From positions 434,001 to 498,000 of the forward strand of contig NZ_VHLG01000003.1 in assembly GCF_006516955.1 (NCBI RefSeq): 64,000 nucleotides of DNA, written 5' to 3'. The first letter of the stretch is position 1, and the number at the start of each line of letters is the position of its first letter. This DNA comes from Martelella alba (lineage in GTDB: Bacteria > Pseudomonadota > Alphaproteobacteria > Rhizobiales > Rhizobiaceae). This document shows positions 2,782 to 49,138 of the stretch, one piece after another. A model generated the notes under the pieces. It was given only the letters and a program-made list of their open reading frames with translations, was not told where the DNA came from and did not search any database. The position numbers and the translations under genes were made by a program.

Positions 2782-2809
2782 AAAGCGCTTCCCTGACGGG
2801 AAGCGCTTT
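2782..2809. repeat. Left flanking hairpin of palindromic element A
   Basis: A perfect 12-base-pair stem, AAAGCGCTTCCC with loop TGAC. It has no T-run on the plus strand. Its stem sequence reappears at 3019-3042, on the other side of the element. Confidence 0.85.
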
Positions 2810-2815
2810 GAGTGT

Positions 2816-3010
2816 TGACAAAGTCATTCAGATTGCCTGCTCGGGGTCACAGAACTAGCCCCCTCCGTCGTCATCCCCGCGCTTGTCGCGGGGATCCAAC
2901 TCCCTAAGTCATTGAACAAAAAGAACCCTTCGCCGTGCCGGCGCACGTCCGCTGGATGCGTGCGGGACCAAGCACAGGCATGACGTCAGAGGGTGCAGAT
3001 CGGTTTGTCA
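2816..3010. repeat. Intergenic palindromic element, copy A (RIME/REP-like)
   Basis: A 195-base non-coding unit bounded by TGACAAA and TTTGTCA. It contains a strong palindrome around 2870-2897 (TCATCCCCGCG / CGCGGGGAT) and a second, imperfect one around 2957-2984. Read forward it aligns along nearly its whole length with the reverse complement of 48913-49104, including the blocks TCCGTCGTCATCCCCG, GGGGATCCA, CTGGATGC and AAGCACAGGCATGACGT. It resembles the mosaic palindromic repeats (RIME/ABC type) described in rhizobia, though I cannot confirm family membership. It lies between convergent genes. Confidence 0.85.
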
Positions 3011-3018
3011 GAAGTCTG

Positions 3019-3054
3019 AGCGCTTCCCAGTTGGGAAGCGCTTGCAGTTTTTGT
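3019..3054 (+). terminator. Right flanking hairpin of element A, probable terminator of the MBL gene
   Basis: Stem AGCGCTTCCC / GGGAAGCGCT with loop AGTT, followed a few bases later by five Ts on the plus strand. It repeats the stem of the hairpin at 2782-2809. Confidence 0.65.
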
Positions 3055-3493
3055 TGATCACGGACCAGAGTGACCGCTGCCGCAGGGGCAGGCAGGTGAG
3101 TAGGCCGTCAGTGCTTCATGTGTTCGGGCAAAGCAAGACGGCCTGAATGTTCCATGCCAAGTGAACAGGTCAAACGACCGACGAAATGCGCCAGATCAAT
3201 GCAGCGCAGTCACAAGGCATGCCTTAACAGTCGCAAGAGCATAGGAGTTTTGCAGAAATCGCGTCGCGGTAGGCGCGGAGTGCAAGCGAAGTCAATGCGG
3301 GATGGCCTGATCCCTTCGGATATTCGGCACATAAATGCAGGCGCCTGCGCACGAAGCGCCCACGTTTGACGAAACGGCCTGCGTCTGTCGCGAAACATGC
3401 GCTTCGCTTCAGCTATGCAGCCGGAAGGTGCCGCAAAACCGATCCCGCAGACGCCTGGTCTCCAGCATTAAGGTTTTGGGGTTCAGGTCTGTT
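3055..3493. other. Intergenic region without recognised features
   Basis: About 440 bases between element A and the end of the cold-shock gene. Open frames here are short, overlap one another on both strands and carry no recognisable domain or ribosome site. I see no RNA gene. Confidence 0.5.
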
Positions 3494-4127: not shown

Positions 4128-5021
4128 TCAGGCCGGGTTTTGTTTTTTTCGTCCAAGTTCAGGCAGAAGCTCAACCATGATGATCGCCAGAAACATCAGC
4201 GCGCAGCCGAGATAACCTGCGGGGACAAGCCTTTCATCAAGAAAGATCGCAGCGCCGAGCGCGCCGAATAGTGTTTCCATTGACAGAAAGATTGCAGCCT
4301 GTGGCGCGGTGGTATAGCGCTGGCCGACCACCTGCAGGGCGAAGGCGAGTCCGGATGAGATGATGCCGACATAGAGAATTTCGCCCCACGATCCGGTGAT
4401 TGAAGCCAGGCTGACAGGTTCGCCGGTAACAAGACCCGTCGCCATGCCGAGCAGGCCGCACACGAGAAATTGTACTACCGACAGCATTAGCGGCCTGCCG
4501 CTCGGGCCAACGAAAACTCCGACAAGGGTCATCTGAGCCGCCCAAAAGAGTGCGCAGAAGATTGTCAGCCAGTCACCGATGTTCAATCTTGAAAGGTTGC
4601 CGCCTGAGAGAAGGTAGATACCGCCAAGCGCCATAAGGGCTGCCGGCCAGACGACCGGGTGGGGCGGCTTTTTCAGGACCAGCAGGGCTATTGCCGGAAC
4701 AGCGAGCACATAAAGGCCGGTGAGAAAGCTGGAATTGGTGACGCTGGTATGGATGATACCGACCTGCTGCAGCGCCGAGCCGCCGAACAATGCGACGCCG
4801 ATGAGCGCGAAATGGCCATAATCGCGGCGGACAAGGCGTCTTTCAGATCTGGCACCTTCGGCAAGCGCGAAGGGCAGAACCACAGCGGCCGCCAGCAGGA
4901 AACGGATACCGATGAACCAGTATGGCCCTATATAGGTCATGGCGGTGGATTGGGCAACGAAGCCGCCGCCCCAGATGGCTGCTGCGAGGAGAAGGACACT
5001 GTTTGCTTGTAGCCGGTTCAT
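4128..5021 (-). CDS. EamA/DMT-family transporter
   Basis: A polytopic membrane protein of 297 residues with ten hydrophobic segments in two EamA repeats. The first repeat opens with LLLAAAIWGGGFVAQ, the second begins near the LTIFCALFWAAQMTLVG segment, and the C-terminus carries the family block SMETLFGALGAAIFLDERL. Proteins of this family export small metabolites such as amino acids, but the substrate is unknown here. The frame is open 34 codons further upstream. I chose the ATG at 5021 because the fold starts immediately after it and the upstream extension is basic and non-membrane. Confidence 0.9.
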   Translation of the reverse strand: MNRLQANSVLLLAAAIWGGGFVAQSTAMTYIGPYWFIGIRFLLAAAVVLPFALAEGARSERRLVRRDYGHFALIGVALFGGSALQQVGIIHTSVTNSSFLTGLYVLAVPAIALLVLKKPPHPVVWPAALMALGGIYLLSGGNLSRLNIGDWLTIFCALFWAAQMTLVGVFVGPSGRPLMLSVVQFLVCGLLGMATGLVTGEPVSLASITGSWGEILYVGIISSGLAFALQVVGQRYTTAPQAAIFLSMETLFGALGAAIFLDERLVPAGYLGCALMFLAIIMVELLPELGRKKQNPA

Positions 5022-14592: not shown

Positions 14593-14705
14593 AAAAAAAA
14601 AGGACCACCAAATCGGGGTCCTTATGAGTTGTGAAGGTAAAACCTCCAGAGGGGAACAGCTGCTGCAGCGGGACTGGAGAGCCAACCGCCAGACGCATCA
14701 GCTAT
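14593..14705 (-). ncRNA. AbcR-type trans-acting sRNA, copy 1
   Basis: A non-coding unit on the minus strand ending in a terminator hairpin (14601-14622) and nine Ts (14593-14601). It shares with the second copy the block GCAGCAGCTGTTCCCCTCTG, the following GAGGTTTT and the 5' AGCTGATGC, while the rest differs. A CTCC motif occurs in the single-stranded region. Tandem sRNAs of this kind next to the LysR gene lsrB/vtlR match AbcR1/AbcR2 of Rhizobiales, Hfq-dependent repressors of ABC-transporter mRNAs. The 5' end is estimated from the promoter. Confidence 0.75.
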
Positions 14706-14789: not shown

Positions 14790-14906
14790 AAAAAAAAAGG
14801 GCCTCCGAAACCGGGGCCCTATAAGTTAGAAGGCTTCTCAAAACCTCCAGAGGGGAACAGCTGCTGCGGTGAGCCAGGGAGAAGTTGGCCACCAACTGCA
14901 TCAGCT
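14790..14906 (-). ncRNA. AbcR-type trans-acting sRNA, copy 2
   Basis: Second member of the tandem pair, about 115 nucleotides, ending in a GGGCC-type terminator hairpin at 14799-14819 and nine Ts (14790-14798). It has the same GCAGCAGCTGTTCCCCTCTG core and the single-stranded motif CTTCTCCCTGG, containing the CTCCC typical of AbcR target-binding sites. It lies nearest to lsrB, whose product (VtlR/LsrB) activates abcR genes in related bacteria. Function inferred from family: Hfq-assisted silencing of nutrient-uptake mRNAs. Confidence 0.78.
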
Positions 14907-47338: not shown

Positions 47339-48859
47339 ATGGTGGAATCTGAAGCACAGGGACGGCTTCCGGGCATTTCCCCTGTCTCCGTGGTCGATAT
47401 CGGATCAAACTCTGTTCGTATCGTCATTTATGAGGGATTGTCGCGCTCGCCGACAATCCTGTTCAACGAAAAGGTCCTGTGCGGGCTTGGACGTGGCATT
47501 GCCGTCTCCGGCAAGATGGATGAGGACGGGGTGGAGCGGGCGCTGAAAGCGCTGAAACGCTTCGCGGCACTTTCCCGTCAGGCCGGTGCGGTGAAAATGT
47601 ATGTGCTGGCCACCGCTGCTGCCCGCGAGGCGTCGAACGGGCCGGGTTTTATTTCGGCCGCAGAAGCAATCCTTGGTGAGGAAATTCGCGTTCTCACAGG
47701 CCGCGAGGAAGCGCTTTATTCCGCCTATGGCATTATCTCCGGCTTTTTCGAACCGGACGGGATTGCTGGCGATCTCGGTGGTGGTTCGCTGGAGCTCGTC
47801 GACATTTCCGGCAATGCCTCAGGGCAGGGGATCACGCTGCCGCTCGGTGGCATCAGGCTTTCAGAACTGTCAGAAGGTTCACTAGTCAAGGCGCGTGCCT
47901 TTGCCCGTAAGCAGGTCAAGAAGGTTGAATTTCTTGAGACCGGCAAGGGCCGCATCTTTTATGCTGTCGGTGGTACCTGGCGTAATATTGCCCGCCTGCA
48001 TATGGAAATGACCGGCTATCCGTTGACCATGATGCAGGGCTATGAACTGCCGACGGAAACTGTTCTTGCCTTTCTTGACCGGATTGGTGAGGACGAGGAC
48101 CAGAAGGATCCGGCCTGGTCTGTCATCTCCAAGAACCGCCGTCAGCTTTTGCCTTTCGGTGCCATCGCCATGCGCGAAGTGCTGAATATCATGCAGCCGA
48201 AAAGCGTCTGTTTTTCCTCGCAGGGCGTGCGCGAAGGCTGGCTCTATTCGCTTCTGAATGTCGAAGAGAAACGGCAGGATCCGCTGATCGTGGCCGCGCA
48301 GCAGCTGGCGATCCTCAGAGCACGCTCGCCGCGTCACGCCAGCGAGATTGCCGAATGGACCGGCCGCATGGTGCGGCGCTTCGGCATTGAGGAGACCGTG
48401 GAGGAAATGCGTTACCGCGAGGCGGCCTGTCTGCTGGCAGATATTAGCTGGCGGGCCCATCCTGATTTTCGCGGTCCCCAGTCGCTGAATGTGATCGCCC
48501 ATTCCTCGCTGGTGGGTATCACCCATCCTGGCCGCGTGTTCATCGCCCTGGCCAACTACTACCGTTTTGAAGGGTTGCGTGACGATCACATGACCGATGG
48601 TCTTGTGGCGATCACGACACCGACCTTTCTCGAACGGGCCAAGCTTCTGGGCGGGCTCCTGCGGGTGGCCTATCTCTTCTCCGCCTCCATGCCCGGTATC
48701 GTCGGCGATCTGGATTTCGTGCCGAGCCAGAACCCGGATCTCGATCTGGAACTGGTGGTGCCGGAAAGATACGCCGATTTCGTCGGCGAACGTGTCGAGG
48801 GCCGGTTGCAGCAGCTGGCCAAGCTGACCAATAAACGGCTGGCCGTTGCCAGCGCCTGA
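47339..48859 (+). CDS. ppx: Exopolyphosphatase / Ppx-GppA phosphatase
   Basis: 506 residues of the ASKHA fold. Phosphate 1 loop VVDIGSNSVRIVIYEG, then GAVKMYVLATAAAREASNG and phosphate 2 AGDLGGGSLELVDI. The C-terminal HD-like part continues with RYREAACLLADISWRAHPDFRG-type residues. It hydrolyses polyphosphate from the ends or pppGpp. It is the second gene of ppk-ppx. The terminator hairpin pair and element B follow. Confidence 0.93.
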   Translation: MVESEAQGRLPGISPVSVVDIGSNSVRIVIYEGLSRSPTILFNEKVLCGLGRGIAVSGKMDEDGVERALKALKRFAALSRQAGAVKMYVLATAAAREASNGPGFISAAEAILGEEIRVLTGREEALYSAYGIISGFFEPDGIAGDLGGGSLELVDISGNASGQGITLPLGGIRLSELSEGSLVKARAFARKQVKKVEFLETGKGRIFYAVGGTWRNIARLHMEMTGYPLTMMQGYELPTETVLAFLDRIGEDEDQKDPAWSVISKNRRQLLPFGAIAMREVLNIMQPKSVCFSSQGVREGWLYSLLNVEEKRQDPLIVAAQQLAILRARSPRHASEIAEWTGRMVRRFGIEETVEEMRYREAACLLADISWRAHPDFRGPQSLNVIAHSSLVGITHPGRVFIALANYYRFEGLRDDHMTDGLVAITTPTFLERAKLLGGLLRVAYLFSASMPGIVGDLDFVPSQNPDLDLELVVPERYADFVGERVEGRLQQLAKLTNKRLAVASA

Positions 48860-48877: not shown

Positions 48878-48904
48878 AAAAAAGCCCGGGTGTCGCACCC
48901 GGGC
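48878..48904 (-). terminator. Left flanking hairpin of element B, probable terminator of the dehydrogenase gene
   Basis: GCCCGGGTG / CACCCGGGC stem with a three-base loop; six Ts follow on the minus strand. Confidence 0.8.
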
Positions 48905-48912
48905 TGAGCTTG

Positions 48913-49104
48913 CTGACAAAGTCTAAGCCCCTCTCTAACGTCATGCCTGTGCTTGTCACAGGCATCCAGCCGACGCGCGTCCGCGCGGCGAAAGACTCCG
49001 CTTATTCAAATCCTTAAGAGTATGGATCCCCGTGACAAGCACGGGGATGACGACGGAGGCAATGGCTATTCTACCCCAAACAGACAAGCTGAATGGCTTT
49101 GTCA
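48913..49104. repeat. Intergenic palindromic element, copy B (inverted relative to copy A)
   Basis: 192 bases bounded by TGACAAA and TTTGTCA. The reverse complement aligns with copy A at 2816-3010. It holds palindromes at about 48943-48964 (ATGCCTGTGCTTGTCACAGGCAT) and 49024-49049 (GGATCCCCGTGACAAGCACGGGGATGA). Flanked on both sides by the same hairpin stem. It lies between the convergent ppx and dehydrogenase genes. Confidence 0.87.
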
Positions 49105-49113
49105 GCAGGCTGA

Positions 49114-49138
49114 GCCCGGGAGTTACACCCGGGCTTTT
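49114..49138 (+). terminator. Right flanking hairpin of element B, probable terminator of ppx
   Basis: GCCCGGG / CCCGGGC stem with a seven-base loop, followed by four Ts on the plus strand. Confidence 0.75.

Follow-up and report, generated by a model that had tools for sequence, protein, structure and literature searches.

A short palindromic element that sits exactly between two hairpins with the same stem raises the question of where the second hairpin came from. Two such loci, copies A and B, lie in a 64,000-nucleotide stretch of the Martelella alba genome (contig NZ_VHLG01000003.1, positions 434,001 to 498,000; hereafter, the window). At both, the stems within a pair match and the loops differ, and the stem of copy B (AGCCCGGG...) differs from that of copy A. 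DDE transposases as a rule duplicate a fixed number of bases, because their two strand transfers occur a fixed distance apart. The original prediction, made from the sequence of the window, offered two explanations: an insertion into or next to a terminator in which the targeted hairpin was duplicated, or a gene-conversion event in which one hairpin was overwritten by the other. Here, we show that copies A and B belong to one foldback element of approximately 207 bp, a miniature inverted-repeat transposable element (MITE), and that its paired hairpins are target duplications of whole, terminator-like stem-loops. The same product is formed by one branch of the IS1182 family of insertion sequences (ISs).

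A high-copy MITE with locus-specific hairpins

The element is short, non-coding, and multi-copy, and carries terminal inverted repeats. At least 80 copies are assembled in this Martelella genome (G000). They were selected from 83 candidate pairs, three of which were dropped (the two halves of a nested copy, L031, and C5:2128, judged to be without the core); because the terminus sites were taken from part of the 196 described below, and half or single-ended copies (e.g., L002 and L043) were left uncounted, this number is not a census. The most common length among the 80 copies is 209 bp, including the outer T and A, and the consensus ends are TCAGACTGCTGACAAA and TTTGTCAGCAGTCTGA; the outermost T of TCAGACTGCTGACAAA and the A at the other end are part of the duplicated hairpin. 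The 16-bp terminus was found at 196 genome sites with ≤2 mismatches, compared with seven for a reversed-pattern control, and a search for the core, which the two window copies share in opposite orientations as predicted, gave 42 matches. The left and right flanks of the same copy matched at a score of ≥12 in 66 of 80 cases, compared with 21 of 640 mismatched pairs from different copies, which bears out the predicted locus specificity of the hairpins. These three results together exclude a chance resemblance. Some pairs are identical even in the loop, such as GGCCCGGTTGCTGCTGCAGCCGGGCC at C44:392582.

When the eight bases to the left of hairpin 1 (≥4 A) and the eight to the right of hairpin 2 (≥4 T) were inspected, an A-run or a T-run occurred outside the hairpins in 61 of the 66 matched copies, and both occurred in 31; random 8-mers reach ≥4 A or ≥4 T in approximately 7.5% of cases for either base. 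The terminal repeat was also present, at ≤1 mismatch, in all 13 Martelella genomes (5–120 sites each; control, 0–3). RIME and other rhizobial palindromic repeats are likewise short, intergenic repeats of the Rhizobiales.

Several other arrangements were noted among these loci. In L031 (C44:198916–200359), the core palindrome of the MITE is interrupted by an IS481-family IS (NF033577, 279.8 bits). This locus was considered as a long copy in which IS481 supplied the MITE ends, and was rejected as an IS481-family insertion nested in the MITE core, with the repeat ACGAG seen by eye. In another genome (G146), a second repeat of approximately 142 bp lies between similar hairpins at three loci (L083, L089, and L286); one of its ends matches and the other is diverged (TCAGATTGATTACAAA or its complement).

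Empty sites carry a single hairpin

The closest relative, G005, has 88% identity over the gene neighboring copy A, and at the copy A site it has a single hairpin, AGCGCTTCCC-CGATTT-GGGAAGCGCT. Among 54 eligible copies, 32 joined flank pairs were prepared, and the 17 with the best-matching flanks were compared against G005; copy A was compared separately, and copy B stood outside the comparison. By reading, seven of the 17 sites were empty in G005, six were occupied, and four were otherwise (two containing other sequence or a single hairpin of another kind, one one-sided, and one not found). At all eight resolved empty sites (these seven and copy A), one hairpin was present and none held two, and the left- and right-flank matches overlapped by 21–27 bp, which is the hairpin itself; for copy A and C22:317636, the intergenic sequence on the left is diverged from that of G005, and most of the left match there consists of the hairpin. 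Thus, the predicted duplication of a whole stem-loop at a terminator-like target is supported, and the MITE has target-site duplications in the sense of both the matching flanks and the single-hairpin empty sites.

Five of the six occupied sites were re-found in G005 by the MITE ends (C11:641237 was not). All five had paired hairpins, and the changes between the species were one-sided; for example, GCTGATGC occurs only on the left at C44:392582. Because the changes at these shared sites are confined to one side, gene conversion is not needed to explain the similarity of the pairs; as their origin, it is contradicted by the empty sites.

At C54, two tandem elements (203803 and 204038; L010 and L030) are accompanied by three related hairpins, as would result if a hairpin produced by the first element had served as the target of the second; we count this arrangement in favor of duplication.

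Full-length relatives on one IS1182 branch

The MITE ends TCAGACTGCTGACAAA are equal to the ends of two ISs of approximately 1.5 kb in other genera, L081 and L082. L082 has AGGCCGGGCCGACGCCCGGCCT on both sides and encodes an IS1182-family transposase (475.9 bits against a curated cut-off of 270) with DDE_Tnp_1_6 and DUF772 domains. In addition, 15 plasmid IS copies were fetched from 60 listed of 1,040 matching plasmid records, with clinical-pathogen plasmids passed over. The ends are thus shared with autonomous elements (L081, L082, and the plasmid ISs), all in genera outside Martelella. IS1182 duplications of up to about 60 bp are given in ISfinder.

Palindromic direct repeats of 18–30 bp adjoin the IS ends in 14 of the 15 named plasmid copies (13 at first scoring; the repeat of L315 was detected under stricter scoring), from Rhizobium, Sphingobium, Aminobacter, Salinivibrio, Alkalihalophilus, Bacillus, Brevibacillus, and Sutcliffiella. 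The first base of the repeat is A and the last is T in 12 of 14, one pair outside the stem, and according to the record tables the IS lies between convergent genes in nine of 14 (L305, L306, L309–L314, and L318). When the two flanks of the IS in Aminobacter sp. SR38 are joined through a single copy of the hairpin, the resulting 200-mer is present exactly in the IS-free locus of NyZ550, giving a before-and-after pair in which a 20-bp hairpin was duplicated. IS-free records were found for three of the four IS sites searched, and all five records fetched there have a single hairpin, including those for the L310 and L306 sites; no IS-free record was found for the L314 site. At the terminator between kynU and an ABC-transporter gene, the IS occurs in opposite orientations in Aminobacter sp. 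SR38 and A. niigataensis (L311 and L312, both on plasmids).

A repeat test centered on the transposase itself was applied to 38 IS1182 loci. Repeats of 18–30 bp were found in 17 (the 14 named copies plus L146, L147, and L284) and repeats of ≤10 bp in 21, including L152, for which only 89 bases of downstream DNA were present. In a tree of 37 rows (L316 was dropped for length), 16 hairpin-duplicating rows formed one branch (support 99/96), of which L317 was the only further member, and 20 rows lay outside. The hairpin-duplication trait therefore sits on one IS1182 branch, which spans the Proteobacteria and Bacillota. Outside this branch, three IS1182 copies of genome G092 were read, each of which splits a palindrome and is bordered by a 4-bp repeat. 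These copies (L297–L299) are identical to one another, and their repeats are GTGG, TAGC, and CCAC.

IS30 was also considered as the supplier and rejected: the own genome has no IS30 match, four of 41 genomes exceeded the cut-off, and the ends belong to an IS1182 element. On the same grounds, the MITE is not assigned to the IS30 family.

Copies A and B in the window

The left hairpin of copy A (2784–2807; 24 bp) is the terminator-like AGCGCTTCCC-TGAC-GGGAAGCGCT, orthologous to the single hairpin in G005, and with its neighboring bases it forms perfect palindrome arms at 2779–2793 and 2798–2812. The MITE body, a foldback core of 211 bp, follows at 2808–3018, bounded on the plus strand by the left terminal inverted repeat TTGAGTGTTGACAAA (2808–2822), the outer bases of which are changed relative to the consensus CAGACTGCTGACAAA, and the right repeat TTTGTCAGAAGTCTG (3004–3018). 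The right hairpin, AGCGCTTCCC-AGTT-GGGAAGCGCT, occupies 3019–3042, and the G005 alignment restarts exactly at 3019; a T-rich stretch lies beyond it at 3048–3055. The 195-base TGACAAA...TTTGTCA stretch that had been described as the element is real and forms only part of it: the terminal inverted repeats reach eight bases further outward at either side, so that the element abuts the hairpins.

Copy B has its left hairpin at 48883–48905 with an A-run in front, a body of 207 bp at 48906–49112 with the core in the orientation opposite to that of copy A, and its right hairpin at 49113–49135 with a T-run behind. The predicted location between convergent genes is clear here, with open reading frames (ORFs) ending at 48859 (+) and 49145 (−). 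It is looser at copy A, where the left ORF ends at 2723 (+), because the end of the next large ORF on the minus strand, at 4128, is approximately 1.1 kb away. The protein encoded beside copy A is 98% identical to one from Martelella sp. HB161492; the three matches ranked after it are also from Martelella (79–80%). An Rfam search of the window gave two adjacent ar15 small RNA genes (RF02345) as its sole matches, at 14596–14703 and 14793–14906 on the minus strand (90.7 and 85.3 bits).

Proposed mechanism and alternative explanations

We propose, with a probability of roughly 85%, that the transposase selects a terminator stem-loop, that the 3′ ends of the element are joined to its two 5′ feet, and that gap repair leaves a stem-loop on each side. 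An IS1182-type transposase would move the MITE in trans, choosing the stem-loop of an intrinsic terminator, probably as extruded hairpin DNA. The element 3′ ends would be joined on opposite strands, approximately one base pair outside the G+C stem, and repair of the gaps would then complete a stem-loop on each side. Joining at the feet followed by gap repair would make the length of the target duplication equal to that of the hairpin. Hairpin 1 would keep the outer A-run on its left and hairpin 2 the outer T-run on its right, so that insertion should be nearly neutral: both convergent transcripts would still meet a hairpin and a U-tract, and termination would probably be retained. Within this scheme, the duplication, its equality with the empty-site hairpin, the shared ends, and the IS1182 branch with the same product are directly shown.

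Several observations weigh against this proposal. Direct flank scores were higher in 57 of the 80 copies and equal in four, and inverted scores were higher in 19; by a margin of ≥4, the direct orientation was better in 37 copies and the inverted in eight. Such inverted cases are not predicted by simple duplication. A/T tails raise the inverted score, but the pairs at C8:24476 and C52:137360 look truly inverted. Flanks do not match in 14 of the 80 copies, the kind of copy that by the original prediction would count against it; these copies may have decayed or been inserted differently. The repeat at C9:21015 is direct, 15 bp long, and not palindromic. Among the full-length ISs, L317 of Exiguobacterium is on the branch and has no hairpin repeat. 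Furthermore, a search of the own genome for IS1182 gave a single match of only 18.8 bits, and no intact IS of the appropriate branch was found in the 13 Martelella genomes, where the matches were fragments, apart from a full-length IS1182 member of another branch in G008; present mobility in Martelella is therefore doubtful. Separately, the inverted pair at C52:137360 (L137) is common to two species, as it also occurs in G005 (L261).

If the hairpins were instead the separate terminators of two convergent genes, they could have been matched by gene conversion or template switching, events favored by stems that are palindromic and close together. The perfect arms of hairpin 1 of copy A extend into the element end, as if corrected after insertion, and a few pairs are inverted. 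Nevertheless, the single hairpin at every resolved empty site, the exact SR38/NyZ550 pair, and the one-sided changes at shared sites make this origin very improbable, and conversion is possible as a later polishing step. In a further alternative, the hairpins and the element would form a composite terminator or regulatory repeat that was amplified as a unit with no transposon involved, in keeping with its intergenic position and strong predicted folding (copy B with its hairpins, z = −12.2); since the hairpins vary by copy while the ends and core are constant, and empty sites keep the hairpin without the element, we give this idea almost no credence.

The closest competitor to hairpin recognition concerns what the transposase reads. 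It may recognize a duplex motif at the borders between the A-run and the stem and between the stem and the T-run, both of which terminators possess, rather than the folded hairpin. The terminal A and T of 12 of 14 plasmid repeats and the non-palindromic repeat at C9:21015 are consistent with such reading. On the other hand, the distance between the borders varies (18–30 bp in the plasmid ISs) and both feet are hit regardless, the stems have no obvious common sequence feature, L315 duplicated an A+T-rich palindrome, and recognition of structure was inferred by the authors for IS1272 (PMC5678879). We therefore consider duplex reading possible but rather unlikely, and prefer recognition of the stem-loop.

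Relation to known elements

For IS1630 of Mycoplasma fermentans, an IS30-type element (Calcutt, Lavrrar & Wise 1999), duplication of inverted repeats has been reported, with duplicated junctions of 16, 23, 25, and 26 bp at four of the seven complete copies in the strain studied (via PMC3317919). Inverted repeats are duplicated there as here; however, the IS1630 transposase is of the IS30 type and its host is a Mycoplasma, whereas the autonomous relative here is of the IS1182 type and is accompanied by a high-copy MITE. IS1272/TnSha1 of staphylococci resembles the present elements in its IS1182-family transposase, 16-bp ends, and hairpin targets, which have no sequence consensus and include several confirmed terminators (PMC4923244, PMC5678879). 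In that system, the hairpin is removed or replaced with no target duplication, whereas here it is kept and doubled; whole-stem-loop duplication is drawn beside IS1272 replacement only as pathway b of a model (PMC5678879, Fig. 13). ISPse1 of Paracoccus, with end repeats matching at 16 of 16 positions and a 4-bp duplication (PMC3281130), and the G092 copies, which lie in palindromes, belong to the same family in the Alphaproteobacteria, but their duplications are of 4 bp and not of whole hairpins. IS1182 elements are described as acting with or without target duplication (PMC12056078), and IS1182 is absent from the main text of a review on prokaryotic MITEs (PMC10969869). The open-licence literature searched contained, in its accessible parts, neither a description of this MITE nor one of whole-hairpin duplication by IS1182. 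Duplication of inverted repeats is thus already known from IS1630, and the IS1182 clade and MITE that double hairpins are a variant joining both systems.

Significance

The duplicated length follows the shape of the hairpin, rather than a fixed distance, in 66 of the 80 MITEs and in 14 of the 15 named ISs. This provides natural evidence for an outcome that had only been drawn as a possibility for IS1182 in those parts of the literature available to us, makes structure-directed target choice testable, and accounts for a class of paired terminators. It also suggests a low-cost route of entry for a mobile element into convergent intergenic regions. We see an even balance for and against a broader interpretation, in which a clade spanning Alphaproteobacteria, Gammaproteobacteria, and Bacillota reads extruded terminator hairpins and joins at their two 5′ feet, with DNA shape fixing the length of the duplication, the MITE has rebuilt scores of terminators in one genome as safe landing sites, and the family realizes three outcomes. 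If this is true, the IS1182 family would show all three drawn hairpin-directed outcomes, namely duplication, replacement as in IS1272, and splitting of a palindrome with a 4-bp duplication as in G092, and the working terminator left on each strand would constitute a safe landing based on duplication.
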